From contig JAJDTB010000062.1 of the NCBI GenBank assembly GCA_022827345.1, positions 1 to 64,000 of the forward strand: a DNA stretch of 64,000 nt, written 5' to 3'. This DNA comes from Gemmatimonadota bacterium. Its GTDB lineage: Bacteria > Gemmatimonadota > Gemmatimonadetes > Longimicrobiales > Gaopeijiaceae. This document shows, piece after piece, positions 2,329-59,064 of this stretch. A model generated the notes under the pieces. The model had not been told where the DNA came from. It saw only the letters and a list, made by a program, of their open reading frames with translations, and made no database searches. The position numbers were made by a program, and so were the translations under genes. Every line of letters starts with the position of its first letter. Position 1 is the stretch's first letter.

Positions 2329-3479
2329 GCTTCCTGACTCGCCGCTCGAAGCGCCGGGAGCCGCAATACTCCGACGACCTGCGTCTTGCCAACTATCCCC
2401 ATCCCTATCCCGACGGCTGGTACCGGCTGCTCCGCTCGAAGTCGCTGCGACGCGGGCAAGTGCGCTACCTGGAGTGCCTGGGCCGCGCACTTGTCGTCTG
2501 GCGCAGCGAAGCCGCGGACGCAGTATTCGCGATGTCAGCGTTCTGCCCTCACCTGGGCGCGAACCTCGCGGGCGGCCGCGTCTGCAAGGATCGCATCGAG
2601 TGTCCCTTTCACGGCTGGCAATTCACGGGCGACGGACGAGCGGCCCGTGTGCCCTACAGCGACACCGTGCCCACCCGCGTGGCGACCGAGAGCTTTCCCG
2701 TACAGGAGGTGCACGGGCAGATCTTCATGTATCACCGGAGTGGCGGAACTCCGCAGCAGGCGGGTGAGGAGGTTCCGTACCCGGTCCCCCGCATCCCGGA
2801 AGTCGATGACGGGATCTTCGTCTTTCGCGGACATTACGACGCCGGTCGCATCCGGATGCACATCATCGAGCCTATCGAGAATGCGGTCGACTCCGCGCAC
2901 TTCGGACACCTCCATAACCGGCTGACCGTGCCCTGGACGCAATTCCCGATTCCCCGCACGGCCATCGAATACACGTCGCGCCTGGACTTTGACGCCGCCC
3001 GGGGGGGCTACCGCATGCCGCTCCTCGTCGAGACCGTGTTCAACGTCGGCGGCCGTCGCATGGAAAGTACCAGGACAAAGACCCGAGTCATGTTCACGGG
3101 AGTCGGCAGCATCATGAACCTGAGGATCGAGTTGCCCAGGGTGGGCGTCGTGGAGATCGTGCAGACCTATCTGCCGATCGCACCACTTGACCAGCAGGTC
3201 GTCTTTCATTGGTTCGCCGAGCGCAGCGTCCCGCGACTTCTGGTCCGGGGCGCGGTCGGAGGCTGGGTCTCCCAGTGGCGCAACGATGTCCGCATCTGGG
3301 AGGAAAAAGCCTTCACGGCTCCCCCGATGCTCTGCCGCGACGACGGGCCCGTGATGCGTCTGCGGGACTGGTACCGACAGTTCTTTCCCCCCGGCGGGGA
3401 GGCGTCGCGGGACTACCCGAGGAGGCAATCCCCGGGGAGCTGCGCTGGAAGTTCGCCGAGCTCGCCATCGAGGCCGTGA
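2325..3479 (+). CDS. Rieske [2Fe-2S] oxygenase, DAF-36/cholesterol-7-desaturase-like
   Basis: 384 residues. The Rieske site is C74-x-H76 and C93-x2-H96 within CPHLGANLAGG and IECPFHGWQF, a pairing typical of the DAF-36/Neverland and KshA-like oxygenases that act on sterols. The mononuclear iron site follows as D189, H192 and H197 in AVDSAHFGHLH. The start at 2325 overlaps the upstream stop and is preferred over the longer in-frame extension to 2148, which is the shadow of the upstream gene. Known relatives desaturate or demethylate sterols using NAD(P)H reductase partners; none is visible here. The last ~27 residues are low-complexity (SSPSSPSRP) and a helix-like reading continues in the +1 frame, so a 3' frameshift is possible. 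Confidence 0.75.
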   Translation: MSFLTRRSKRREPQYSDDLRLANYPHPYPDGWYRLLRSKSLRRGQVRYLECLGRALVVWRSEAADAVFAMSAFCPHLGANLAGGRVCKDRIECPFHGWQFTGDGRAARVPYSDTVPTRVATESFPVQEVHGQIFMYHRSGGTPQQAGEEVPYPVPRIPEVDDGIFVFRGHYDAGRIRMHIIEPIENAVDSAHFGHLHNRLTVPWTQFPIPRTAIEYTSRLDFDAARGGYRMPLLVETVFNVGGRRMESTRTKTRVMFTGVGSIMNLRIELPRVGVVEIVQTYLPIAPLDQQVVFHWFAERSVPRLLVRGAVGGWVSQWRNDVRIWEEKAFTAPPMLCRDDGPVMRLRDWYRQFFPPGGEASRDYPRRQSPGSCAGSSPSSPSRP

Positions 3480-3559
3480 TGATCGTGTTCGCCGTCCTCC
3501 TCGCCAGGATCGACACCTGTGACACCCACACCCATCTGCTGTACGGTGCGAAGTGGCGG

Positions 3560-4000
3560 TCAGCTCCCCCGCACCCGATCCAGGAACTCCTCGGCGGTCT
3601 CGCATTCAATCACCGCGTCGGCGATGGGTGCGATGTCTTCCGGATCGGAGATTCGATCGAGTACAGGCAGGATCTGACCGGCGGCGCTGGGACCGAACCT
3701 GCGGGTGACCATGCGGTGAACCGGTGCCGGGGCCGGTAACCAAGCAGCTCGCCTGGCACCGGGCCGATCAGGTCGGCTATGTCGGTCGCGGCGGTCCAGC
3801 GCCGTTCTCCGTTGTAGATGACGACGGGCAGCACGAAGGGGTACTCGCTGCGTGGCCCCAGATGTGGTGAAGTCGAGGTGTCGGGAGAGGTCGGCGGCCA
3901 CCGCACGCAGTGTGTCGGCGACGGTGCGCGGATGGGTGAAGAAGCTCTTGTAGGACGCGTCGTGCTTCGGGTTGTCGGGTCGTTGCCGCTTTCCCGGCAT
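3560..4000 (-). pseudogene. Rpn-family gene, internally deleted remnant
   Basis: Pieces of an Rpn-type gene in order on the minus strand: an intact N-terminus (ATG 4000, NPKHDASYKSFF then HPRTVADTLRAVAADL), a middle piece (SEYPFVLPVVIYNGERRW, about 3735-3870, in another frame) and the C-terminus (MVTRRFGPSAAGQILPVLD to the stop at 3560). About two-thirds of the coding length is gone through at least two deletions. The surviving parts are nearly identical to the copy at 629-1621, so the two were recent paralogues. Dispersed repeat copy 3 lies 110 bp upstream. Confidence 0.75.
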
Positions 4001-4256: not shown

Positions 4257-5450
4257 TCATCGAACCACCTCATACACCACCACATTCTCCACGTCCATGT
4301 CGTCCCTGAGCACGCCCAGCACGAGCCCTCCGGTCACGTCGAGGATGCGGAACCTGGGCGGAGTCTCGACCTGTCCCAGCCACTCCCCGTCCGGGGAAAT
4401 GACGGTGTACGGCGATCCCTCTTCCGGGTAGGCCGGCCGGTAGGAGGGGAGCCACAGGTTTCCGTCGGCGTCGGCGAAGGGGGAACCGAAGAGCGGCACC
4501 GGCTGGCCGATCATGTCGCGATACCGGGACATGTCTTCCTGGATTATCTCCTCGAGCCGGGCTTCGGATACTCCGTAGTTCATCCGGCCGATCATGCGGT
4601 TGTAGGACTCGCCGTGCTCCAGGAGTTCCTCGGTCAGCAGGTTGGGCCCGGGCCGCCAGCGCACGATCTGGGTTACCGTACCGTCCGGCAGACGCCAGGT
4701 GATCTCGGGCCTGTCGGACCTCGTTTGGACGAACCGCCCCGCAGCGACCGTGACCTCGCCGACGGGCCGGATGATCGGGCGCGTCTGCCCCGACCGCTGT
4801 CGCGGGACGTGGTCGTACGACGCGACCGTGTCCAGGGCGCCGGTTTCGGTATCGAACAGGGTCATGTGCCCGGCGAGCCACTCCTCCTCTATGTCGACCC
4901 AGGAACGGTAGGCGTACCGGTCCATCATCATCAGCTCACCGGATGAGCCGATTCCCGCCAGACCGAAATGGGCCGCCCGTGGCAGGCGCGCGGTGCGCGC
5001 GACCGAATCGCCGACGAATAGAGTGAGGCGAGATTGACGACGGTCAGGCACAAGGACGCTGTCCCGGCCCAGGACGAACAGCGCGTAGGGCTCGATGACT
5101 TCTCCCGGTCCCTCTCCAACCTTGGCGAGCACCTTGTGCGTCGTCCCGTCCGGACTCAGGACGACCACTTCGCTGTACCAATCGGCAACGACCGCGCTTC
5201 CGTCCGGGAAGAGCCGGCCGGCCTCGGCGAACTGGAAGATGTAGTCGGCCGGGCCGTCGCCGTGGCGGTAGCGGGGTTCTTCCGCGAGGGCGAAGGGGGG
5301 CTCGACGTCGGGGACGCCCGCGTACTCGACGATCCGCACGCCGGCGCTGTCCGAAATCCGGACCGGGATGTCGCGCGCGGATTCGGTGTCGCCACCGCAG
5401 GCGAGCAGGGCTGCTGACAGGATCAGAGGGAAGTGGCGTCGGGTTCGCAT
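4257..5450 (-). CDS. Secreted lipoprotein, six-bladed beta-propeller-like
   Basis: 397 residues. A lipoprotein signal with lipobox LLAC (Cys18) is followed by a repeat-rich body of the kind annotated as 6-bladed beta-propeller in Gemmatimonadota and Bacteroidota: FQFAEAGRLFPDGSAVVAD, then VGEGPGEVIEPYALFVLG, and late propeller strands such as SPFADADGNLWLPS. No catalytic residues are recognisable. The predicted location is anchored in a membrane facing the periplasm or outside. A second copy with an internal deletion lies at 7812-8519. The upstream 150 bp, including a hairpin at 5613-5636, is also shared between copies, so the whole unit was duplicated. The function is unknown; a binding or scaffold role is a guess. 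Confidence 0.75.
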   Translation of the reverse strand: MRTRRHFPLILSAALLACGGDTESARDIPVRISDSAGVRIVEYAGVPDVEPPFALAEEPRYRHGDGPADYIFQFAEAGRLFPDGSAVVADWYSEVVVLSPDGTTHKVLAKVGEGPGEVIEPYALFVLGRDSVLVPDRRQSRLTLFVGDSVARTARLPRAAHFGLAGIGSSGELMMMDRYAYRSWVDIEEEWLAGHMTLFDTETGALDTVASYDHVPRQRSGQTRPIIRPVGEVTVAAGRFVQTRSDRPEITWRLPDGTVTQIVRWRPGPNLLTEELLEHGESYNRMIGRMNYGVSEARLEEIIQEDMSRYRDMIGQPVPLFGSPFADADGNLWLPSYRPAYPEEGSPYTVISPDGEWLGQVETPPRFRILDVTGGLVLGVLRDDMDVENVVVYEVVR

Positions 5451-5666: not shown

Positions 5667-7223
5667 ATGTCCGACGAAGTGCAGTATCTGCGCCGCGAAG
5701 TGGAACGGCTTCACGCGCGGTTGGCATTGGTTCAGGGAGGGCAGGACGGCTACTACGAGTCGCCGCTGGTCAAGACGGACTGGTTCAAGCTGCGCCACAT
5801 GCCCGAACAGGGCCTGGATCGGAGGGTGGCAAGGCAAGTCGTGGAAGACGCCCACGCGCTTGACTTCGATCACCGGCTGAATACCTCTTCCTATGTGAAC
5901 GTGGCCCTCGACCCCGAGGAGGAGGCAATCGCACTCCTGGGGCTACGGGTCAACCTGGCCGACCAAACGGTCTACCCACAGTCCTACCGGCTCCACGACA
6001 CGACCGTCAACATGATCGGCGGCCTGTGGAACTGCCCCGAGGGTCCCGACTTCGCGGACTTCGGCGTGTTCCCGGGCGCGGGCACGGCAGGTTCCACCGA
6101 AGCCTGCCTGCTGGCTGGACTGGCGCTGAAGTTCCGTTGGCGCGCCTGGTACGCCCAACGCTGCGGCATGACCGTGGAGCAGACGGCGAAAGTGCGCCCG
6201 AATCTGGTCGTATCCACCTGCTACCAGGCGGCATGGGAGAAGCTGTTCAGGTACATGGACGTTGAGCCCCGGCTCGTCCCGCCTTCGGTCGAAACCTTCA
6301 CCCTGGATGCCGCGAAGCTCCCGGACGTGATCGACGAGCGCACGATGGGGGTCGTCTGCATCATGGGCAATCACTACGGAGGCCACTACGACCCCGTTCA
6401 GGAGACAAGCGACGTCATCGACGAAATCAACGCCGAACACGGCTATCAGGTCGGCATCCACGTCGATGCGGCATCCGGAGGGTTCATCGCGCCATTCCAG
6501 GACGGCCTACCGCCATGGGACTTCCGGGTCGGAAACGTCCTGTCGATCTCCGCAAGCGGACACAAGTACGGCGAATCGATCTGCGGAACCGGTTGGATCG
6601 TCTGGCGACACCGCCAGCAACTGAGCGAGGGTATCGCCATTGCCGTAACGTATCTCGGGGGCAGGGCGGAGTCGTACACGCTCAACTTCTCCAGACCGGC
6701 GGCGGGCGTCTACGTCCAGTACTACAAGCTGCTTCACTACGGAATGTCCGGCTACCGGCAGTGCTGCGAAAACATGATGGCCAACGCTGCCTATCTGCGC
6801 GCCGGATTGCAGTCGATGCGCCAAGGCGGCAAGCCGCGGTTCGTCCTGCTCGACAACGGCGACGACGACTGCCTACCGGTGGTCACGGCCAGGCTCAACC
6901 CCGAGTGCCGACTCTCTTATGACGATTTCGACCTTCAGAACGCCCTGGCTCAGCATCATTGGTACGTAGGAAGCTACCGCATGCAGTTCGATCATCCCGT
7001 GACGCAGGAGAAGCTGCCATTGTTCCACGATGCCGATGCGGGTGCGTCCATGTTCCGGATCGTCGTGAAGAGCAACCTCACACGGGGCATGGCGGAGCAC
7101 CTGCTGGAGTCCATCCGGGCGAGTCTCGCATTCCTGGATTCGATTTCGGCAGACGGCTCGCTGGCGTTCGACACGCACGGCCTTCGCCATAGGGACCAGC
7201 GGCGGCTCAGCAACCACTGCTGA
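5667..7223 (+). CDS. gad: Glutamate decarboxylase, PLP-dependent
   Basis: 518 residues, group II PLP decarboxylase of the GadB type (L-glutamate to GABA plus CO2). Family marks are TSSYVNVALDPEEEAIALLG near residue 75, a GSTEACLLAGLALKFRW stretch, HVDAASGGFIAPF (PLP-nitrogen Asp), and SASGHKYGESICG with the Schiff-base Lys near residue 300. The length is somewhat above the usual ~460 because of a charged coiled-coil-like N-terminus (VQYLRREVERLHARLALVQ). AGGAGG lies 5 bp before the ATG. It is flanked by the two lipoprotein copies. In many bacteria GadB works with a GABA antiporter in acid resistance; none is seen here, so metabolic GABA production is equally possible. Confidence 0.9.
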   Translation: MSDEVQYLRREVERLHARLALVQGGQDGYYESPLVKTDWFKLRHMPEQGLDRRVARQVVEDAHALDFDHRLNTSSYVNVALDPEEEAIALLGLRVNLADQTVYPQSYRLHDTTVNMIGGLWNCPEGPDFADFGVFPGAGTAGSTEACLLAGLALKFRWRAWYAQRCGMTVEQTAKVRPNLVVSTCYQAAWEKLFRYMDVEPRLVPPSVETFTLDAAKLPDVIDERTMGVVCIMGNHYGGHYDPVQETSDVIDEINAEHGYQVGIHVDAASGGFIAPFQDGLPPWDFRVGNVLSISASGHKYGESICGTGWIVWRHRQQLSEGIAIAVTYLGGRAESYTLNFSRPAAGVYVQYYKLLHYGMSGYRQCCENMMANAAYLRAGLQSMRQGGKPRFVLLDNGDDDCLPVVTARLNPECRLSYDDFDLQNALAQHHWYVGSYRMQFDHPVTQEKLPLFHDADAGASMFRIVVKSNLTRGMAEHLLESIRASLAFLDSISADGSLAFDTHGLRHRDQRRLSNHC

Positions 7224-7250
7224 GCGCCGATGGGGGAACCAGCTCCTCCT

Positions 7251-7358
7251 TCAGCCCGTGTACTCGTCCAGCCCGGTTTGCCGGGCGGTGTGCACAAAGT
7301 CGATGACGTGGACGGCCATGGCGTCCTCGTCAATCGTGAAGAACACCCGGTGAGACAT
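7251..7358 (-). pseudogene. ParE/RelE-type toxin, C-terminal remnant
   Basis: A 35-codon frame directly downstream of the intact antitoxin reads SHRVFFTIDEDAMAVHVIDF then VHTARQTG, the C-terminal beta-strand pattern of ParE/RelE toxins. The toxin N-terminus is missing; the GTG that overlaps the antitoxin stop runs into another frame. The toxin is therefore dead while the antitoxin remains, the expected direction of decay for such a pair. Confidence 0.6.
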
Positions 7359-7373
7359 CACCAGCTTGGAGCT

Positions 7374-7655
7374 TCACAGCGTCACGCCGAAGTCGTCCGC
7401 GAGCTCACGGACGACCTCCCGAGCGTCGCGGCCGGTATCACCGGCTTCGAGGCGCTCGAGGGCGGCTTTCCAGACATGACCGCGCTCGGCTGCATGGACG
7501 AGGAAGTCGTAGCGCCTGGGGCTCATCACGACCATGGCTGCTTCGCCATTCTGCGTAATCGTCTCGATGCGACCCTCTGCCAGGCGGGCCAGGTGTTCGC
7601 CCGTCTTCTCACGAAAATTCGTGAGCGAATAGGTGTCTTGGGTCCGGTGGGTCAT
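7374..7655 (-). CDS. Phd/YefM-family antitoxin
   Basis: 93 residues. The N-terminal TYSLTNFREKTGEHLARLAE and the central GEAAMVVMSPRRYDFLVHA are characteristic of Phd/YefM antitoxins (N-terminal DNA-binding dimer, C-terminal toxin-binding tail). GGGAGGGC precedes the ATG by 4 bp. The partner toxin is only a C-terminal fragment (7251-7358). The C-terminal two-thirds is almost identical to the truncated copy at 416-625, so the locus was duplicated. It may persist as an orphan antitoxin. Confidence 0.8.
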   Translation of the reverse strand: MTHRTQDTYSLTNFREKTGEHLARLAEGRIETITQNGEAAMVVMSPRRYDFLVHAAERGHVWKAALERLEAGDTGRDAREVVRELADDFGVTL

Positions 7656-7811: not shown

Positions 7812-8519
7812 TCATACACCACCACATTCTCCACGTCCGATGATCGGGCGCGTCGGCCCCGACCGCTGCCGCGGCAAGTGGTCGTACGACGCGACCGTGT
7901 CCAGGGCACCGGTTTCGGTATCGAACAGGGTCATGTGCCCGGCGAGCCACTCCTCCTCTATGTCGACCCAGGAACGGTAGGGGTACCGGTCCATCATCAT
8001 CAGCTCACCGGATGAACCGATTCCCGCCAGACCGAAATGGGCTGCCCGTGGCAGGCGCGCGGTGCGCGCGACCGAATCGCCGACGAATAGAGTGAGGCGA
8101 GATTGACGACGGTCAGGCACAAGGACGCTGTCCCGGCCCAGGACGAACAGCGCGTCGGGCTCGATGACTTCTCCCGGTCCCTCTCCAACCCTGGCGAGCA
8201 CCTTGTGCGTCGTCCCGTCCGGACTCAGGACGACCACTTCGCTGTACCAATCGGCAACGACCGCACTTCCATCCGGGAAGAGCCGGCCGGCCTCGGCGAA
8301 CTGGAAGATGTAGTCGCCGCGGTTGGCGCCGTGGCGGTAGATGGGGTGTTCGGCGAGGGTGAAGAGGGGGTTGGTCTCGGGGACGCCGAGGTACTCGATG
8401 ATCTGGACGCCGGCGCTGTCGGTGGTTTGGACTTGGAGGTCGTGGGTGGGGTCGGTGGCTTCGCCGCAGGCGAGGAGGGCGGCGGACAGGATCAGGGGGG
8501 AAGAGGGTCTGGTTCGCAT
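7812..8519 (-). pseudogene. Truncated copy of the propeller lipoprotein
   Basis: 235 codons. After a diverged first ~70 residues the sequence is nearly identical to 4257-5450 up to TRPII, then ends in the unrelated octapeptide GRGECGGV. The DNA explains this: the sequence ACGTCC equivalent to 4291-4296 is joined at 7838/7839 to the sequence equivalent to 4770 onward, removing 473 bp relative to the first copy. As 473 is not a multiple of three, the end of the original gene is read out of frame. A signal peptide with lipobox LLAC is retained, so a truncated lipoprotein could still be made, lacking the last propeller blades. Confidence 0.8.
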
Positions 8520-8677
8520 TTGCCTTTGGACACCGATGGGATCGACGGCGTTTACAGGTACTTAGGCGCGAGAGGCGAATCGGGCCCGCCGTTGCGGCGT
8601 CGAACTGGGGCTCGGGAGTAGGTCGTGGCCACCGGTCGTATCTTCGACGGCAGTTCCTCGCGATTACTGAAACGCAA

Positions 8678-8710
8678 GAGCCCCGAGGACGGGAAACCGC
8701 CTCGGGGCTC
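8678..8710 (-). terminator. Strong hairpin, possible terminator
   Basis: A perfect 11-bp stem, GAGCCCCGAGG with CCTCGGGGCTC, encloses an inner CGG-GAAA-CCG stem with a GNRA-type tetraloop. Read on the minus strand it is followed by TTGCGTTTC, a weak T-rich tail, so it could end transcripts arriving from the DUF2971 gene. A related hairpin lies at 5613-5636 upstream of the other lipoprotein copy. Confidence 0.45.
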
Positions 8711-9075
8711 CTACCTCAGCGTCTTGCTGCGCCCGAAGGCTTCTGCAGTAGAGGACGATCTGAGGAATTACGCAGGGTCCGGGTTTCTCTCACCTCCCGA
8801 GCGGCGGAGGGCCCTCGGTATGGAGATGAGGGATTGGGAACGTAATGTCAAGCTGTCAATATGTAATGTTGTCTTCACACGGCCAAGCTCTCTACCGGAC
8901 TATGAGGTCGGTCCTACTTCGTTGGACAAGTGTCCTCATACCGTTGCGGAGTCCCGTCCGGCATTCGCCCGCCCGCGCCCGGGCGCGCTCCGGCCACTGG
9001 CGTGACGAATGATCCCCCGGACGCGCCACTCCCATGCGCCATTGGTAAGTCTCTGAGGCGGACGAATCACGGTTC
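8711..9075. other. Intergenic, no gene seen
   Basis: No supported coding region. A short stretch near 8840-8875 (TAATGTCAAGCTGTCAATATGTAATG) loosely recalls the centre of the dispersed repeat at 139-239 but cannot be aligned convincingly. Confidence 0.4.
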
Positions 9076-51716: not shown

Positions 51717-52433
51717 CTACCAGTCGACCTTGTCCGGTTCCGGTCGATAGCGTGCGATTCCGTCGCGGGTCAGCCTGAAGGCAGCGGCCATCACCAATGC
51801 GCTCGACAGAAGAATGGCCGATGCCAGGATCGCGGGTCCCGAATCTCGAGCCACCAGATCGGTGACAACGTCCAGCGGACTACCGAACAACCGATCGAAT
51901 ACCCACAGGACTCCGAACAGCACGACAAATGGGACCAACAGGCCGATGCTGGCCAGTCGCGTCACCGTGTAGCGCATCGTCAGCCCGATAAGCAGCCAGG
52001 AAGCGGCGGACGAGCTGAACCAAACCAGAGGATAGGCAACGATCACGACCCGAAGCGCCGGGGTATCGAGCAGCGGCGGGAGCACGATGCCGCACGCGGC
52101 AGTCACGAAGATCGCGCCCAGGGCCGTCAACCCGCTGGCCGCCGCGCAGCGCGCCAACGCGAGACTCGGTGGAGTCGCCGGGAGACCGGCGAGGAACTCC
52201 ATCGTGCCGTCCAGCTTGTCCTTCAGGACATGCATCGCGCTCATGCCCACGAAGCTCAGCCCGACGGCGACCGCAATGAACCCCACGGCACTTGAATCGA
52301 AACCGGCCAGCGCAACCACACCGACCGCCGCGAGCGCCCCTCCCAGGGTGTGCAGCACCTGCTTGCGCACGCGTCGGAATTCCAGCCCCAACAGACTGCC
52401 GACGATACGACGCGGGGAGATGAGTCTATTCAT
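51717..52433 (-). CDS. ABC transporter permease of the peptide cluster
   Basis: 238 residues with six predicted membrane segments (TLGGALAAVGVVALAGF; VGFIAVAVGLSFVGMSAMHV; TALGAIFVTAACGIVLPPLL; LVPFVVLFGVLWVFDRLFG and others). The middle motif KDKLDGTMEFLAGLPATP is typical of ABC-2 type permeases. It overlaps the ATPase gene by 8 bp and is the last gene of the C39/small-peptide cluster. ABC-2 pairs in bacteriocin clusters often give immunity or export. Confidence 0.78.
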   Translation of the reverse strand: MNRLISPRRIVGSLLGLEFRRVRKQVLHTLGGALAAVGVVALAGFDSSAVGFIAVAVGLSFVGMSAMHVLKDKLDGTMEFLAGLPATPPSLALARCAAASGLTALGAIFVTAACGIVLPPLLDTPALRVVIVAYPLVWFSSSAASWLLIGLTMRYTVTRLASIGLLVPFVVLFGVLWVFDRLFGSPLDVVTDLVARDSGPAILASAILLSSALVMAAAFRLTRDGIARYRPEPDKVDW

Positions 52434-53163
52434 CTGTGGATCTCAGCAGGGTGTAGAGTTTCCTGGACATCGGCGTTGCGGGGTCGCGCGCGTCCACATC
52501 CGCAGCCGACATGTCGGCCACCAAGCGACCGTCCCTCAGGAGGACGACGCGATCGGCAAAGCGCTCGACATCCTCGAGGATATGGGTCGAGTAGAGGACA
52601 AGACGTTTGCCGCCGGCGGGAGCGGACTCGTTGATGACCTGCAGGAGTTCGCCACGCATCACGGGATCGATGGACGATGTGGGTTCGTCGAGGACGAGAA
52701 CGGGTGGACGGAATGCCTCGGCAGCGACGAGGGAGAGCTTGACGGCCATCCCCTTCGAGAGAGTTCCGACCCGGGAAAGGAGCGGCAGCTGCAGGCGCTC
52801 CGCGAGGTCGGCGGCGTGTGCATCATCCCAGGTGGGGTAGAAGTTCGACAGGAACCGCAGGTGTTCGCCCACGGTCAGCCACCCGTACCCCAGCAGGCGC
52901 TCCGGCAGGAATCCGATACTTGCCCGGATCGCCGGCAGATTCGATCGGACTTCCGTCCCCCCCACGGTGACGGTACCTCGATAGTCGTTCATCCTCCCGG
53001 CCATGGCCTTCAGGAGGGTGCTCTTCCCCGCTCCGTTCGCACCGACCAGTGCGACCCGCTCTCCCGGGTGGAGATCCAGACTCAGGGGACCAAGGGTGAA
53101 GTTGGGGTATTCGACCCTGAGGTCCCGCACACTGACCTCCGGCCTCGTTTCAGCCGGTTTCAC
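52426..53163 (-). CDS. ABC transporter ATPase of the peptide cluster
   Basis: 245 residues from GTG 53163 (GTGA overlap with the upstream stop). Walker A is VGANGAGKST, the signature is LSKGMAVKLSL (degenerate LSGGQ), and Walker B is VLVLDEPTSSID, then STHILEDVER. The 25-kDa CcmA/BcrA-type ATPase works with the downstream permease. Its likely job is self-protection against, or release of, the peptides encoded upstream; inference from context. Confidence 0.88.
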   Translation of the reverse strand: MKPAETRPEVSVRDLRVEYPNFTLGPLSLDLHPGERVALVGANGAGKSTLLKAMAGRMNDYRGTVTVGGTEVRSNLPAIRASIGFLPERLLGYGWLTVGEHLRFLSNFYPTWDDAHAADLAERLQLPLLSRVGTLSKGMAVKLSLVAAEAFRPPVLVLDEPTSSIDPVMRGELLQVINESAPAGGKRLVLYSTHILEDVERFADRVVLLRDGRLVADMSAADVDARDPATPMSRKLYTLLRSTDE

Positions 53164-53837
53164 AGCGTCACCTGGGCCCGAACGGCCGCGAACGCCAGTA
53201 CGGCTGCCCACATGAGGCAGGCCAGACCGACCGCTCTCGCCCGGCTGAATCCGAAGCAGTGGCGGAACGCTGCGGTCAGGAAAAGGAACCACGCCAGGTG
53301 GAACAGCGTGACGGACTGCGCCACCGCCCACAGAACCGGCATGGTGGGAGGCACGATCGCCCCCAGGCCCAGGGGGAGCTGCAAGTCCTGAGGCGACGAT
53401 ACGACGCCCCCCGTGGTGAGATGCACCAAAAGAACAACTGCCACACCCTGGAACATCAGAATCGCCTCTCCGTACAGTAGCACCGAGACGAGCGGCCTTA
53501 TCCGGCTGTCGACACCGCCGAGGGTCAGGGCGGCCCACCCAACCGCAGTCAGGAGCAGGGCCTTGAGCAACATCAGAAGCGGCGCGATCAGCGCGGCAAA
53601 CACGAGCACGAGCTGGACGGTCGACGATGCACCAGGCTGTTCACCGCCCAGGGCGCGCAGGAGCAGCGGCCGCGAAGCGACCGCAGCCACGACCGAGAAC
53701 ACCCAGCCCGCGACCAGCGGAGGGAAGACGGGCTCATGCCTCCTGATGTCATCAAGGCCCGGTACCAGAAGGGCGAGGAAGCGCCTGATCCGGCCCCAGC
53801 CCGTGGGCCGCGGCGGGTCGATCACCATTTCATTCAT
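53160..53837 (-). CDS. YIP1-like membrane protein
   Basis: 225 residues with about five to six membrane segments (VAGWVFSVVAAVASRPLLL; LVLVFAALIAPLLMLLKALL; AVGLACLMWAAVLAFAAVRA). The pattern of a cytoplasmic N-terminus followed by a five-helix bundle resembles Yip1-domain proteins. It is ATGA-coupled to the thioredoxin-like gene and GTGA-coupled to the ATPase. YIP1-like genes occur next to ABC ATPases in many bacteria; the function is unknown. Confidence 0.65.
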   Translation of the reverse strand: MNEMVIDPPRPTGWGRIRRFLALLVPGLDDIRRHEPVFPPLVAGWVFSVVAAVASRPLLLRALGGEQPGASSTVQLVLVFAALIAPLLMLLKALLLTAVGWAALTLGGVDSRIRPLVSVLLYGEAILMFQGVAVVLLVHLTTGGVVSSPQDLQLPLGLGAIVPPTMPVLWAVAQSVTLFHLAWFLFLTAAFRHCFGFSRARAVGLACLMWAAVLAFAAVRAQVTL

Positions 53838-54376
53838 TGTTCTGATTCATCTCCGGTAATGGTCTGTATGTTGTTGATCAGCCTCCGCCTGCTGCTCTGT
53901 CCGACCTCGACGATGCGGACCGTATCCGTGGCGTCGATCCAGAAGGCGGCGGGCACCGCGTTGACTCCCAGCATTCGTCCTGCGCTGCCGTCCGGATCCT
54001 GCACCGTTCGCGCGCGGAGAGGCTCGGGCACCCATTGTGCACCCTCCATTTCCGAGGTGGGTGACGCGACCACCCAGACCCTCTCCGCAAAACCATGCTC
54101 GGGAGCCAGGGCTTCCCACTGATCCAGTTCGGCCCGGCAGTACACGCACTCACGATCCACGTAGAGAAGGACCGCCGGAGACCCTTTCATTTCCTCCAGG
54201 CTCCCGGGGCCTCCCCCGACCTGTACAACGGTCAGGGGAGGCAACGGCCAGGGAGGCTGCCGCGGGCCGGAACCGGCCCGATTCCCATTCGCCAGGAGCA
54301 CCGGCAGCAGCGCGGCCGCGGCGGCGCACGCAGCCACAAGCACGGCCGCAACCCTGCGCGGAACTGCTACGTGCAT
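53834..54376 (-). CDS. Membrane-anchored thioredoxin-fold protein
   Basis: 180 residues from ATG 54376. One N-terminal membrane segment (AAVLVAACAAAAALLPVLLA) is followed by a redoxin domain with C77-x2-C80 (VLLYVDRECVYCRAELDQW), RVWVVASPTSEMEGAQWV and the cis-Pro-type loop LGVNAVPAAFWID. In this cluster, which encodes several two- and four-cysteine peptides, it is probably the oxidase or isomerase for their disulfides. The start lies 10 bp inside the upstream peptide gene. Confidence 0.75.
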   Translation of the reverse strand: MHVAVPRRVAAVLVAACAAAAALLPVLLANGNRAGSGPRQPPWPLPPLTVVQVGGGPGSLEEMKGSPAVLLYVDRECVYCRAELDQWEALAPEHGFAERVWVVASPTSEMEGAQWVPEPLRARTVQDPDGSAGRMLGVNAVPAAFWIDATDTVRIVEVGQSSRRRLINNIQTITGDESEQ

Positions 54377-54636
54377 GCCAGCACGCGCGCGTAGAAAGTA
54401 AGGCCGGGATAGGCGGGACCGCCCGCGACACAATCGAGCCACGTGATGACCCGGACCGCCGACCCGACGAATTCGAGCAACTGGCCGCCGGAGGGATCGC
54501 TCGCGACGGTCTGCCGATGCACCTCCTGGACGGTGGCCTCGCGGGGACGGGCCGTCGGCGGTGCAAGAACGGCTGCGCATGACACTGCCACTGCCAGCCG
54601 CATGGCAAGGGCTCGGTGAAAGATCGCTGTGGGCAT
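54367..54636 (-). CDS. Secreted two-cysteine peptide (precursor-like)
   Basis: 89 residues from ATG 54636. A signal-like segment (MRLAVAVSCAAVLAPP) leads to a hydrophilic stretch and then SDPSGGQLLEFVGSAVRVIT, WLDCVAGGPAYPGLTFYARV and LACT. The GGQ and the pair of cysteines 18 residues apart recall the next two peptides (GGQ, cysteines 20 apart). Processing after GG by the C39 peptidase would release about 43 residues. The family is unknown. Confidence 0.5.
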   Translation of the reverse strand: MPTAIFHRALAMRLAVAVSCAAVLAPPTARPREATVQEVHRQTVASDPSGGQLLEFVGSAVRVITWLDCVAGGPAYPGLTFYARVLACT

Positions 54637-54649
54637 CGTCACACCGCCG

Positions 54650-54937
54650 CTAGCCAAGGGTGCCGAGGAGCACGCCGCCGCAAACGGGAACGGCGAAGAT
54701 GAGCGCGAGCGGCATCACAAAGGAGAGGCCGGCGAGTCCAATGCAGAGATAGACATCCTCCGCCGCCTGGCCTCCCACGACATGCGTCGCGTCGACGACC
54801 TGAATCGACTCGGCGACGTGATCGGTGTCGCCCCACGCCGAACCGCCATGTCCCAGCAGCGAAGCGTTGATGATGGACAGAGCTGCCAGGGTTGCCATGG
54901 CAGAACGGATTTTCGTTGATCCTGAGAATTTCTTCAT
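54650..54937 (-). CDS. Secreted bacteriocin-like peptide, GGQ family member 1
   Basis: 95 residues from ATG 54937. The N-terminus is signal-like (SAMATLAALSIINASLLGHG); a linker ends in VVDATHVVGG; then QAAEDVYLCIGLAGLSFVMP and LALIFAVPVCGGVLLGTLG. The two cysteines are 20 residues apart in a very hydrophobic, Gly-rich tail. It is a clear paralogue of 54943-55215 (A-L-S-x-x-N-A-x-x-L-G-H and VVGGQ shared). GG before Q is a candidate C39 cleavage site, giving a 39-residue peptide. Confidence 0.65.
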   Translation of the reverse strand: MKKFSGSTKIRSAMATLAALSIINASLLGHGGSAWGDTDHVAESIQVVDATHVVGGQAAEDVYLCIGLAGLSFVMPLALIFAVPVCGGVLLGTLG

Positions 54938-54942
54938 TTTGG

Positions 54943-55215
54943 TTACCCCCAAGTCCGTACTACGGCCGAGTAGCACGACATTGCTGCAAATACTCCCATG
55001 AACGGAAAGAAGTGGGCGCCGACGCCCGAAACGACGCAGGTCACCCAGTCAATTCCCTGGCCTCCGACCACATCGGGGCCAGTTCGTGTTTCTGCCTGGT
55101 ATGCGACGGGTGCGCCAGTACCCGTCCCCTGCATCTCGTGTCCGAGGTACAGGGCGTTCGACAGCGAGAGCGCCGCTACCAGGCACAGCACTCGCCGATT
55201 CAATCTTGAAGTCAT
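54943..55215 (-). CDS. Secreted bacteriocin-like peptide, GGQ family member 2
   Basis: 90 residues from ATG 55215, with AGGAGG 4 bp upstream. Signal-like segment VLCLVAALSLSNALYLGHEM, linker ending TGPDVVGG, then QGIDWVTCVVSGVGAHFFPF and MGVFAAMSCYSAVVRTWG. The cysteines are 20 residues apart, as in the previous peptide. Cleavage after GG would leave 38 residues. The gene ends 5 bp before the start of the next gene on the same strand. Confidence 0.68.
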   Translation of the reverse strand: MTSRLNRRVLCLVAALSLSNALYLGHEMQGTGTGAPVAYQAETRTGPDVVGGQGIDWVTCVVSGVGAHFFPFMGVFAAMSCYSAVVRTWG

Positions 55216-55259: not shown

Positions 55260-55559
55260 CTATGAAAAGCCAACGGTGCATGCACCGACGCAGGCTCCGA
55301 GTAGGGCGCCGTTTGCGCCCGCGAGCACAAGAAGACCGATCACCGACGACCCGCCCCCCACGATTGCGCCGGCCGCGCACCCCGCGCAGATGAGCTTGGC
55401 CAACCAGGGACCCGTTCCGACGACCGCTTCCGTCACAGGCGTGGCCGGCGGGGTTGCCGAAGCGGAGCCTGCTGCGACCTGACCGCCGATGGCGGCGGCC
55501 GGAACGGCGATCAGCGCGAGAATACCCGCAATGGTTCGCACTACTGACTGCTTTTTCAT
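55260..55559 (-). CDS. Secreted four-cysteine Gly/Ala-rich peptide 1
   Basis: 99 residues from ATG 55559. Signal peptide (AGILALIAVPAAAIGGQVAA), linker to VTEAVVGTGPW, then LAKLICAGCAAGAIVGGGSS and VLAGANGALLGACVGACTVG. The cysteines are C-x2-C, 28 residues, C-x3-C, the same plan as 55610-55894. The hydrophobic glycine-rich core is typical of pore-forming bacteriocins; halocin C8 is a distant analogue in style only. A 15-bp tandem duplication (GAAGGAACGAACAAT twice) copies the ribosome-binding site and start, so an alternative ATG at 55574 exists. Confidence 0.65.
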   Translation of the reverse strand: MKKQSVVRTIAGILALIAVPAAAIGGQVAAGSASATPPATPVTEAVVGTGPWLAKLICAGCAAGAIVGGGSSVIGLLVLAGANGALLGACVGACTVGFS

Positions 55560-55609: not shown

Positions 55610-55894
55610 TCACAGGTTTGCACACGCTGCTATGCATCCTGCGAGGGCCAGCGAAGACCCGGGAACCGACGCTGCCGCAACGACGGCACCCCAGCCCCCG
55701 GCGGCGATACCGATCCCGGCCACGAGACATCCCACGCAGGCTGCAAACGTCTTCCAGCCAGTCCCGGTGACGTCCTCTGCCGCTGCCGGTGGTTCGCCGG
55801 TCCCGAAGGATGCGCCCGGCTGTGCTGCGCTGTGCATCCCCAGGACGGCGAGACACAATCCGAGGGTAAGAACCCTCATGTTAGATCGAAGCAT
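55610..55894 (-). CDS. Secreted four-cysteine Gly/Ala-rich peptide 2
   Basis: 94 residues from ATG 55894 with GGAGG 5 bp upstream. Signal peptide (VLTLGLCLAVLGMHSAAQPG), then EDVTGTGWKTFAACVGCLVA, a Gly/Ala-rich core and SSLALAGCIAACANL. The cysteine plan is C-x2-C, 30 residues, C-x3-C, matching 55260-55559, and both share G-T-G-x-W/K before the first cysteine. The start lies 14 bp inside the C39 peptidase gene, so it is the first peptide of the operon. Confidence 0.68.
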   Translation of the reverse strand: MLRSNMRVLTLGLCLAVLGMHSAAQPGASFGTGEPPAAAEDVTGTGWKTFAACVGCLVAGIGIAAGGWGAVVAAASVPGSSLALAGCIAACANL

Positions 55895-56552
55895 TTTTCC
55901 TCCAATGATGGTGCTTGAGCCCATGGCGCAGTTCGCCACGGGAGATCCGCTCCTGTCCGGCCAGCAGCACGGCTTCGCCGGACCAGATGGATCTGAAGTC
56001 CTGTTCGCTGATCGTGTAGCGACCCACGCGCGGGTCGATGACCGTGATGGTCCCGGTGGGACTCAGGTCCGTCACTGTGACGAAATGATTGCGGTTGACC
56101 CATGCGATGAACGGTCTCGGAGTGGCGGCGACCTGCTCCGGGGCGATGTGCTCCAGGGTCATCGGCAGCCCGAAGACCGCGCCGGCCCGAATGAGCCCGC
56201 TGGCTCTGGTCCCGACCGGGCCGGTGCCCGCAAGCGTGGCCAGCGAGTCCAGCGATGGGGCATCGATGCCGACGGCGTGCAACAGGTTCGCCAGGGCCGC
56301 GGGCCCGCAGTCGTTGAGGGTGGCCTGCAGGACCACGCCTTCCGCTCCGAGATACGAGCCCCCGAGATCGGTCAACTCCTGCCGGGCGGCGATTCTGCCC
56401 ATGCGCGGCAGTTCCGTGACTGCGAACGCCGCGATTCCGATGGTGGCCGGAACCAGCACCAGTACCGCCAGCGCACCCAGTCGACGGACTGCGGAAGGGT
56501 GCCGGAAGAACGCCTTGCGAGGATTTGTGGAGCCGGACCGACGTGCGATCAT
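55881..56552 (-). CDS. Membrane-anchored C39-family peptidase
   Basis: 223 residues from ATG 56552 (TTG 56591 is an in-frame alternative). One N-terminal membrane segment (ALAVLVLVPATIGIAAFAVT) is followed by a papain-like C39 domain: Q76 and C82 in LQATLNDCGPAALANLL, H156 in AWVNRNHFVTV and D173 in TVIDPRVGRYT. C39 peptidases cut bacteriocin leaders after double glycine; usually they are fused to an ABC exporter, whereas this one is free-standing and faces the periplasm. As first gene of the cluster it is the likely processing enzyme for the downstream peptides. Confidence 0.8.
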   Translation of the reverse strand: MIARRSGSTNPRKAFFRHPSAVRRLGALAVLVLVPATIGIAAFAVTELPRMGRIAARQELTDLGGSYLGAEGVVLQATLNDCGPAALANLLHAVGIDAPSLDSLATLAGTGPVGTRASGLIRAGAVFGLPMTLEHIAPEQVAATPRPFIAWVNRNHFVTVTDLSPTGTITVIDPRVGRYTISEQDFRSIWSGEAVLLAGQERISRGELRHGLKHHHWRKNASI

Positions 56553-56705: not shown

Positions 56706-57326
56706 CTACAAGGTCATCAGCACCGCCAGGATGTCCTCGTTGGTGGGCCGCACGCGGTAGTCGACCTCGACGAAGCTGTATCGGACGACCCCCTCCCTGT
56801 CGATGACGTAGGTCGCCGGGTGCGGCAGCGGCCTGTTCGGGGGTGCATCCTCGTTGAAGAGGCCGTAGCGGTCGATCACCCGGTGGTCCGGATCCGACAG
56901 CATGATAAAGTCGGGCGTCACGCCGTCATCAGCAGCGACTCGGTCGATCATCAGCTGCATGCCTTCGCGGTCGTCCACCGACACCGTCACGATCTCCGTG
57001 TCGTCCTGCAGTTGGTCGGGAAGAAGGGCTCTCAGCTCCACGAGCTGACTGGCGCAGTACGGTCACCAGTGGCCGCGGTAGAAGACCAGGACGACGTTCT
57101 TCTCGCCCCGGAAGCCGGCGAGGTCCACCGCCCCGTGCTCGAAGGATTCGAGGGTGAAGAGCGGCGCTTCAGTGCCAATCGCCACACGCCCGATATCGGT
57201 GGGGGGCAGGTCGTGGCCGTCCACGGGACCCAGCGTCTGGGCGGCGGCGGGCGCGGATGCGAAGAGGCCGGCAAGCAGCAGCGGCAGGATGCCGGCGCGG
57301 ACCGGCGATCTTGGAGAGCGTTTCAT
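56706..57326 (-). CDS. Peroxiredoxin-like protein with predicted selenocysteine (UxxC)
   Basis: 206 residues if the TGA at 57063-57065 is read as selenocysteine (residue 88). Before it: a signal peptide (AGILPLLLAGLFASAPAAAQ), then APLFTLESFEHGAVDLAGFR and VLVFYRGHW. After it, in the same frame: PYCASQLVELRALLPDQLQ, then TEIVTVSVDDREGMQLMIDR and LSDPDHRVIDRYGLFNEDAP. Relatives have C-P-Y-C at this place, so the TGA replaces the first catalytic Cys. A hairpin right after the TGA (57032-57048) fits a bacterial SECIS. A nonsense mutation is the alternative, but the frame beyond is intact and well conserved in pattern. Predicted periplasmic thiol peroxidase or oxidoreductase. Confidence 0.75.
57032..57048 (-). 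promoter_or_regulatory. Candidate bacterial SECIS element
   Basis: In the mRNA of the peroxiredoxin-like gene, U-CAGCUC pairs with GAGCUG-A (7 bp) around a three-base loop GUG. The loop begins 21 nt after the UGA and its first base is G, which agrees with the general bacterial SECIS model (loop 16-37 nt downstream with G in the first two loop positions). Confidence 0.55.
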
Positions 57327-57405
57327 GGGGGCCGTTTCGTGAGCGGGCGGGGGGATGATGTCTCGGCAGTACACCGGCGAGGCGGCTTGACGATATGTTA
57401 ACGGC

Positions 57406-59064
57406 ATGTGTTCCGTCCTCGCCATCCTCGAAATCGATCCGGCCGCTCCGTACTCGCGCGAGCGCGCGCTGTCCCTGTCCAGGCTGCAGCAGCACCGCGG
57501 CCCCGACTGGTCCGGCGTCTTCGCCGGCGAGCGCGCCCTCCTGGCGCACAACCGCCTGGCCATCGTCGATGTCGAGCACGGTGCCCAGCCGCTCGAGAAC
57601 GCCGCCGGCACGCACGTCCTGGCCGTAAACGGGGAGATCTACAACCATCGCGCCCTCGAGGCGGAGCTCGGCGGCGCCTTCCAGCCCCGCACCCGCAGCG
57701 ACTGCGAAGTCATCCTCGGCCTCTACGCCGAGCAGGGCAGCGACTTCGTGGATCGCCTGAACGGGATCTTCGCCTTCGTCCTCTACGACATCGAGCAGGA
57801 CCGCTACATCGTCGCCCGCGACCACCTCGGCATCGTGCCGCTCTACACCGGGTACGACGACGAGGGGCGCTTCTACGTCGCCTCCGAGATGAAGGCGCTC
57901 GTGCCGGTCTGCCGCACAGTGTCGGAGTTCCCGCCGGGCCACGTGCTCGACTCGAACGACGGCGAGCCCCGGCCCTACTACAACCGGAATTGGCGGACAT
58001 TCGAGGCGGCCACAGCCGAGCCCGGTCCTGACGGCGTCCGCGAGGCCCTCGAAGCGGCGGTCCACCGCCAGCTCATGTCGGACGTCCCCTACGGCGTGCT
58101 CCTTTCCGGAGGCCTCGACTCGTCGATCATCTCGGCGGTTGCGCGCCGGTTCGCGCGGAGGCGCGTGGAGGACGACGACCAGAGTGAGGCCTGGTGGCCC
58201 CGGCTCCACTCGTTCTGCATCGGCCTGGAGGGCTCGCCGGACCTGGCCAGCGCGCGCATGGTCGCGGATCACATCGGCACCGTGCACCACGAGTTCCACT
58301 TCACGGTGCAGGAGGGGATCGACGCCCTGTCCGACGTCATCCACCACCTCGAGACCTTCGACGTCACCACCGTCCGCGCGGCGACGCCCATGTACCTGAT
58401 GGCGCGGCGCATCCGCACGCTGGGGATCAAGATGGTCCTGTCTGGCGAAGGGGCCGACGAGGTCTTCGGCGGCTACCTCTACTTCCACCGCGCGCCCGAC
58501 CCCCGCGCCTTCCACGAAGAGACGGTGCGGAAGATCGACCGGCTGCACCAGTTCGACTGCCTGCGCGCCAACAAGGCGATGGCTGCCTGGGGCGTCGAGG
58601 CGCGGGTGCCCTTCCTGGACAAGGAGTTCCTGGACGTGGCCATGTCGATGGACCCGGCAGCGAAGATGCCGAACGGAGGGATCGAAAAGCGGATCCTGCG
58701 CGAGGCGTTCGCCGACTACCTGCCTCCGGAGATCGCGTGGCGGCAGAAGGAGCAGTTCTCGGATGGCGTCGGCTATTCCTGGATCGATTCGCTGAAGGCG
58801 CACGCGGAGCGGAGCGTCAGTGACCGCGAGCTGGCCAGCGCGCCCTACAGGTTCCCGGCAAACCCGCCGACGGACAAGGAGTCGTACCTGTACCGGCGCA
58901 TCTTCGAGTCGCACTTTCCGCTGCCCTCGGCGGCGGCGTGCGTCCCCGGCGGCCCGAGCGTCGCCTGCTCGACCCCCGAGGCCCTGGCCTGGGACGGCAG
59001 TCTGTCGGAGACGATCGATCCGTCAGGGCGCGCGGTCGCGGGTGTGCACCGGGCGGCGTACTGA
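57406..59064 (+). CDS. asnB: Asparagine synthase B, glutamine-hydrolysing
   Basis: 552 residues, the same length class as E. coli AsnB (554). C2 (MCSVLAI) is the glutaminase nucleophile after Met removal; RHRGPDWSG-like LQQHRGPDWSGVFAGE, VNGEIYNH and SDCEVILGLY complete the class II amidotransferase domain. The synthetase domain has the PP-loop VLLSGGLDSSIIS and LSGEGADEVFGGY. It makes asparagine from aspartate, ATP and glutamine. It is divergent from the selenoprotein gene with a 79-bp shared promoter region. Confidence 0.95.
   Translation: MCSVLAILEIDPAAPYSRERALSLSRLQQHRGPDWSGVFAGERALLAHNRLAIVDVEHGAQPLENAAGTHVLAVNGEIYNHRALEAELGGAFQPRTRSDCEVILGLYAEQGSDFVDRLNGIFAFVLYDIEQDRYIVARDHLGIVPLYTGYDDEGRFYVASEMKALVPVCRTVSEFPPGHVLDSNDGEPRPYYNRNWRTFEAATAEPGPDGVREALEAAVHRQLMSDVPYGVLLSGGLDSSIISAVARRFARRRVEDDDQSEAWWPRLHSFCIGLEGSPDLASARMVADHIGTVHHEFHFTVQEGIDALSDVIHHLETFDVTTVRAATPMYLMARRIRTLGIKMVLSGEGADEVFGGYLYFHRAPDPRAFHEETVRKIDRLHQFDCLRANKAMAAWGVEARVPFLDKEFLDVAMSMDPAAKMPNGGIEKRILREAFADYLPPEIAWRQKEQFSDGVGYSWIDSLKAHAERSVSDRELASAPYRFPANPPTDKESYLYRRIFESHFPLPSAAACVPGGPSVACSTPEALAWDGSLSETIDPSGRAVAGVHRAAY

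Follow-up and report, generated by a model that had tools for sequence, protein, structure and literature searches.

The window, by which we mean the whole 64,000-nucleotide stretch that was analysed, contains a single minus-strand operon (56552–51717) encoding a C39 peptidase, five small precursor peptides termed P5, P4, P3, P2, and P1, a thioredoxin-like protein, a Yip1-like membrane protein, an ABC ATPase, and a permease, with overlaps or gaps of no more than 50 bases between genes. The peptidase gene occupies 55881..56552, and the start of P5 (55610..55894) overlaps it by 14 bases. P5 is the local representative of a class of precursors that we call type A and carries DVTGTG together with a four-cysteine core of the form W...CVGC...CIAAC; its putative processing motif, V-T-G-T-G, lies at computed coordinates 55757..55771. 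P4 (55260..55559) represents type B, with VVGTG, a four-cysteine core of the form P...CAGC...CVGAC, and the motif V-V-G-T-G at 55410..55424, likewise computed.

The remaining three precursors, P3, P2, and P1, are the last of the five and share the order Sec-like leader, GGQ motif, and two cysteines. P3 (54943..55215) belongs to an accessory GGQ class and has a two-cysteine core of 38 residues; it contains ALSLSNALYLGH, the motif V-V-G-G-Q (55057..55071, computed), and a cysteine pair 21 positions apart, that is, with 20 residues between. P2 (54650..54937), of the same class and homologous to P3 (BLASTP E 7e-08, a single comparison), contains ALSIINASLLGH, V-V-G-G-Q (54767..54781, computed and read), and a cysteine pair also 21 positions apart in a core of 39 residues. 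P1 (54367..54636) is a divergent member with the motif P-S-G-G-Q (54481..54495, computed), a core of 38 residues, and cysteines at +18 and +37, which are 19 positions apart with 18 residues between. Its similarity to P3 extends over 10 residues only (E 0.048), and it deviates in having Pro at position −4, where P2 and P3 have Val, and in the +18 position of its first Cys. P1 sits within the same gene run, has a GC content at the third codon position of 0.76, like the neighbouring genes, and overlaps the thioredoxin-like gene at its 3′ end. The earlier note had described these three frames with their GGQ motifs and wide cysteine pairs, and both the frames and the spacings of 20 and 18 intervening residues are found as it gave them; the range of 38–43 residues that it proposed for the released peptides is slightly wide for the 38 (P3), 39 (P2), and 38 (P1) residues that follow GG, and P4 and P5 were missing from its list.

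The thioredoxin-like protein (53834..54376) has a membrane segment at residues 9–27 and a CVYC motif, matches Pfam AhpC-TSA (2.1e-7, in a longer frame), and is a probable disulfide catalyst. The polytopic protein encoded at 53160..53837 has five membrane segments by hydropathy and is weakly Yip1-like (Pfam Yip1 E 0.006, below the cut-off, and no Pfam match for two of its homologues); it is a possible immunity protein. The ABC ATPase (52426..53163, Pfam ABC_tran 4.1e-26) begins with a GTG codon overlapping the stop of the preceding gene (GTGA). It resembles PmtA of the phenol-soluble modulin exporter in that PmtA is its best NCBIfam match (5.9e-37), but at 127.5 bits the score falls well short of the family cut-off of 350, and here there is a single ATPase-permease pair. 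The permease partner (51717..52433) is ABC-2-like, with four membrane segments by hydropathy and a match to Pfam ABC2_membrane_5 below the cut-off (E 0.0014). A Pfam scan of the ten operon proteins gave no match to an outer-membrane pore or amyloid family, and no outer-membrane exporter was seen within the operon. Comparison of P1–P5 with Pfam, NCBIfam, and PHROGs produced no convincing family match, and none at all in PHROGs, and only sporadic weak single-member matches were obtained for type A members against NCBIfam, type B against Pfam, and accessory peptides against NCBIfam. A weak match of P4 to the SPP1 holin family (E 0.076–0.15) was attributed to the signal helix and rejected.

The same arrangement is present in 18 further Gemmatimonadota loci from four family-level groups. 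The genomes searched comprise 98 of the neighbourhood and 395 from the phylum, two overlapping sets that each include the window's genome; flanks were fetched for a first group of 16 loci, yielding 12 operons, and for a second group of eight, yielding six. The fetched loci that stand outside the operon count are L044–L047, which are other C39 loci, L090, where the C39 is truncated by the end of its contig, and L091, the window genome's own C39-ABC protein. By tblastn across 18 loci including the window (L053, which is cut, is excluded), the ATPase is present in 18, the Yip1-like and thioredoxin-like proteins in 17 each, and the permease in 15; the thioredoxin-like protein of L084, missed by tblastn, was read by eye. 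A pattern match located the CxxC of the thioredoxin-like protein in 14 of 17 loci, and inspection of the sequence located it in the remaining three. Occurrence of the operon is patchy across the genera and families that were searched. The named records recovered with the C39 are metagenome bins of Gemmatimonadota or Longimicrobiales, no relative of the operon C39 was found in viral contigs, and plasmid records yielded only C39 proteins below 60% identity, most of the annotated ones among the 25 of 113 records listed being fused to ABC domains. None of the titles and abstracts listed in searches of open-access literature describes this operon.

The C39 protein of the window has 223 residues, one membrane helix by hydropathy (residues 27–45), and no ABC domains, which separates it from the PCAT and AMS transporters. 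Its match to Pfam PF03412 (7.7e-21; 74.8 bits against a cut-off of 22) places it in the C39 family, and it aligns with PCAT1 and ComA among PDB sequences. An AlphaFold2 model (pLDDT 87.1) has a long helix at residues 15–58 and the C39 fold, and its best PDB match is the ComA peptidase 5xe8 (E 1.5e-9), with PCAT1 next. The catalytic cysteine is Cys82, and the Gln, Cys, His, and Asp of the active site, whose roles are assigned from the PCAT1 alignment and from the known mechanism, are invariant in all 13 aligned copies. The proposal of the earlier note that a C39 enzyme serves the GGQ peptides is thus consistent with a catalytically complete C39 at the head of the operon. An N-terminal membrane helix precedes the C39 domain in the same 13 copies and in five of five further complete ones (18/18), and Lys and Arg outnumber Asp and Glu before this helix in 13 of 13. 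A basic side before the N-terminal helix predicts a periplasmic catalytic domain, so that the C39 domain should face the compartment where Sec would deliver the precursors. It is very improbable that the C39 merely assists, either without proteolytic activity or from the cytoplasm, while the precursors persist uncut as small proteins anchored in the membrane. Catalytically inactive C39-like domains do exist, as a passage of PMC5557850 describes, and the hydrophobicity of the cores is very high (mean GRAVY 1.29); the invariance of the four catalytic positions argues against loss of proteolysis, and the basic N-terminal side argues against a cytoplasmic location.

A tree was built from 46 C39 domains, rooted at the midpoint and with non-operon copies labelled fused or stand-alone from open-frame length. 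In it the 19 operon copies and L090, which was excluded from the 19 loci, group together (support 99/97) and are separate from the transporter-fused domains. Five small stand-alone C39 proteins of other loci form a separate group (98/86) on the transporter-fused side; a Caballeronia hit from the plasmid records (L092, unannotated and within a long open frame) entered the tree as fused-type by frame length alone. A 757-residue C39-ABC frame is present elsewhere in the genome of the window (G000, contig C51, 246060–246518), beside a gene whose start, we presume, resembles an NHLP leader, and the ordinary cytoplasmic double-glycine route probably coexists in this cell.

The 19 loci supplied 62 precursors; their selection relied on the start signal, the length, and a hydrophobic leader, with hand additions. 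Type A is intact in 18 of the loci and type B is present in all 19, the window being included in both counts; each type has four cysteines in the arrangement CxxC...CxxxC, and their profiles match each other (hhalign E 6.5e-14). Intact precursors number two to six per locus. Accessory peptides multiply and differ between genera: 20, P1–P3 among them, come from seven loci of the window's genus, and five others come from L038 and L039. In L039 the type A gene (reverse strand, about 8640–8930 in oriented coordinates) has a frameshift between leader and core, and this split gene, a pseudogene or an assembly error, was left out of the precursor set. The hydrophobic leader segment is a selection rule for most precursors, and leader orientation was judged from hydropathy and charge rather than with a trained signal-peptide predictor; ahead of the hydrophobic segment the net charge is +1 or higher in 61 of 62. 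The leader continues into a linker rich in Ala, Val, Gly, Pro, Thr, and Ser.

The precursors share a short motif at the end of this linker. An anchor G-x-[G/Q/D] could be placed in 60 of 62, the exceptions being two accessory peptides of L039 that keep the leader and have no glycine motif. Gly at −2 is set by construction in 59 of the 60 anchors and by hand in one, and six anchors in total were reset by rule or by hand. Position −4 is Val or Ile in 53 of 60 (Val, Ile, Leu, or Met in 57), position +1 is Gly in 38, Gln in 21, and Asp in one (Gly or Gln in 59), and the first core Cys is at +8 or +9 in 49. Position −1 is relaxed (Gly 22, Ala 9, Ser 4, other 25), so that GG, GA, or GS occupies −2/−1 in 35 of 60, and the reading that all sites are GG was rejected. 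The general motif is [V/I]-x-G-x-[G/Q], of which GGQ is one form. Comparison of homologous leaders, which the earlier note proposed as a check of its claim that the GG before Q is the C39 site, gave GGQ in 19 of the 60 anchored precursors, with counts of none in 18 for type A, three in 19 for type B, and 16 in 20 for the accessory class; G-x-[G/Q] is kept in homologues, which supports the claim in part, and GGQ is only a special case of a wider motif.

The joint occurrence of [VI]xGx[GQ] and a first core Cys at +8 or +9 was observed in 43 of 62 precursors, compared with 0.44 on average, and never more than 4, when the stretch preceding the first core Cys was shuffled 1000 times. Control open reading frames from the same loci, chosen by the same leader and start rules, gave 0 of 85, against 44 of 62 precursors in this slightly looser count, and the motif anywhere after residue 25 occurs in 11 of 85 controls and 52 of 62 precursors. 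The precursors are mutually related, and these occurrences are therefore not independent events.

A view of where the motif lies comes from a model of a type A precursor of moderate confidence (pLDDT 68.6), which has a helix at residues 4–23, coil at 24–46, and helices at 47–65, 68–75, and 80–93, and for which a fold search matched no solved fold. The motif G44-T45-G46 lies at the border of coil and helix, where a protease could gain access. One might propose that signal peptidase alone matures the peptides, that the glycine motif serves as a structural cap for the core helix, and that the C39 has another substrate. The leaders do resemble Sec signals, and the motif is located where the modelled core helix begins. 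A signal peptidase cut would, however, leave the long variable linker on the product, the motif is fixed relative to the cysteines and fits the −4/−2 pattern of C39 sites, and the C39 gene neighbours the peptide genes in all 19 loci, although this last co-occurrence is not an independent count because all the loci were found via the C39 gene. We regard this combination as quite improbable and retain the predicted cleavage by the C39 at the glycine motif.

The exact bond can be approached through a second system, found in three genomes that belong to a different family of the same order, in which a small C39 with an N-terminal hydrophobic segment is encoded near precursors that combine a Sec-like signal with a full canonical leader ending VEGG, VSGG, VRGG, or VQGD↓G (the arrow marks the predicted cut; four precursors). 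In L044 the C39 is at 7987–8526 and the precursor at 6887–7510, with the leader LSRDEMEKVEGG↓FFNW. In L045 the C39 is at 867–1790 and the precursors at 1872–2609 and 2639–3415; one leader reads LSAAQMGEVSGG↓GWFT and the other LDVRQLASVRGG↓DPGR. In L046 the C39 is at 4275–4808 and the precursor at 3163–3918, with the leader LSVAQMSDVQGD↓GLWK. Two of these C39 proteins have 179 and 177 residues and the third lies in a 307-residue frame with an unsettled start; all carry the Pfam domain, and the cores of the precursors are basic and hydrophobic. The L044 locus continues with OEP, HlyD, and MacB genes, which suggests periplasmic pick-up of the product by a MacAB-TolC-like pump. Among 154 genomes of the order searched, L044–L046 are the only close relatives; five other matches (E up to 1e-15) are weaker and include an operon copy and long frames. 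L047 (genome G042) was considered as a further parallel and rejected, as its stand-alone C39 has a lipoprotein-like start and no clear precursor with both Sec signal and GG is nearby.

This second, independent system combines a Sec-like signal with a C39 site within a single leader and thereby supports Gly at −2 as the register of the motif. The competing register places the cut of the GxG precursors one residue later, as GxG↓W. In its favour, −1 is Gly in 19 of the 21 precursors with Gln at +1 and almost anything in those with Gly at +1, and the helix of the type A model starts at residue 47, directly after G46. Such a cut would break the invariant Gly at −2 of ordinary C39 sites, and VQGD↓G of the second system aligns with VEGG and VSGG at Gly −2, with Leu at −12 and Met at −7 in addition. 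The later cut is thus unlikely, and the register [V/I]-x-G-x↓[G/Q] is used below.

The PCAT/AMS proteins ComA, PCAT1, and LahT share with the operon enzyme the C39 fold and catalytic residues. Their substrates and the present precursors have in common a hydrophobic −4 and a Gly at −2 that is often followed by a second Gly at −1, and in both cases a cluster holds several short precursors. Their C39 domain is fused to ABC domains, whereas here it is a separate membrane-anchored protein. Ordinary C39 leaders are described in PMC10885120 by a GG, GA, or GS site together with positions −4, −7, and −12, and LahT150 is reported there to depend on hydrophobic residues at these three positions; the leaders of the operon differ in having Sec-like N-termini and a relaxed −1, and the hydrophobic residues at −7 (tabulated) and −12 (read) are not kept. 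At the site itself, P1–P3 all have GG. A nearer parallel in location is FapD, a periplasmic C39 needed for Fap secretion in the Pseudomonas amyloid system (PMC5557850; PMC6173800), the target of which is called "unclear" in a passage of the former paper and "yet to be determined" in one of the latter. From these passages the likeness is that of an extracytoplasmic C39 among Sec-exported proteins, the location being a prediction in the present case; FapD stands in an amyloid operon with the FapF pore, whereas here the C39 stands beside two to six small cysteine-containing peptides that share a motif, and the scan of the ten operon proteins matched neither a pore of this kind nor amyloid subunits. 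An archaeal island described in PMC6393860 likewise has a C39 gene adjoining duplicated genes with double-glycine leaders and was read there as bacteriocin-like or related to quorum sensing.

These features can be assembled into a pathway. The Sec signal and flexible linker rich in Ala, Val, Gly, Pro, and Thr suggest that Sec would carry the precursor into or across the inner membrane, where the helix-anchored periplasmic C39 would cut at [V/I]-x-G-x↓[G/Q], corresponding to GG↓Q in P1–P3, and the anchored thioredoxin-like CxxC protein would form the disulfides of the core. The usual order for the C39 family would thereby be inverted, with export first and trimming at the inner membrane afterwards. 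The universal A and B pair may then act like a two-peptide bacteriocin, with the GGQ peptides as variable extra members beside it, and immunity or final export may be the task of the PmtA-like transporter together with the Yip1-like protein. The extracytoplasmic maturation route is a prediction that we consider likely, and we rank it above the predicted bacteriocin role; the model as a whole, in which an inverted double-glycine pathway yields the small, hydrophobic, disulfide-bearing peptides of the operon, is read from sequence and is judged reasonably probable.

The bacteriocin role deserves separate consideration. Class IIb bacteriocins are two-peptide systems with double-glycine leaders. 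The operon resembles them in having two short hydrophobic Gly/Ala-rich peptides side by side with an ABC transporter and a membrane protein, and A and B are two distinct adjacent peptide genes conserved together. It differs in the four cysteines of CxxC...CxxxC, the Sec-like leaders, and the anchored thioredoxin-like protein, and it has no C39-ABC fusion and no match to a library model; antimicrobial action is unsupported by any family match in Pfam, NCBIfam, or PHROGs. In L038, three paralogous accessory peptides have leaders 88–93% identical and cores 38–49% identical, the change occurring just after VTGSG, a pattern of kept leader and diverging core that is the usual one for conflict peptides. 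The position of the change also supports the motif as the processing site. Six of nine orthologue pairs, by contrast, show higher conservation in the core than in the leader, which weighs against a simple form of the model. The peptides could instead be a conserved component of the membrane or of signalling, such as two membrane peptides active in thiol redox chemistry or a quorum signal, given the conservation of types A and B across four families and the occurrence of their CxxC and CxxxC pairs next to a thioredoxin-like gene. The multiplication of accessory peptides and their differences between genera, the L038 pattern, and the patchy occurrence of the operon speak against such a component, which we hold to be possible but doubtful. 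The bacteriocin role is favoured by a modest degree.

With the second system taken into account, the balance tips slightly towards the proposal that Gemmatimonadota enlisted C39 peptidases on at least two occasions for the periplasmic maturation of Sec-exported precursors whose leaders are bipartite, the operon described here having a relaxed Gx↓[G/Q] site and feeding a multi-peptide disulfide bacteriocin system. The membrane-anchored C39 and the 60 motif-aligned candidate sites offer testable substrates for an extracytoplasmic C39, and such clusters would be expected to escape genome mining that relies on a C39-ABC fusion or on a Sec-less leader.

Upstream of the C39 gene lies a peroxiredoxin/AhpC-like frame (56706–57611) with an in-frame TGA at 57065–57063, in the context HW[TGA]PYC. 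This TGA is kept in nine of the nine loci that have the gene, and the genome has matches to SelB (320.9 bits) and tRNA-Sec (76.5 bits), both over the cut-off, indicating that the peroxiredoxin-like gene probably encodes a selenoprotein read through at the TGA.
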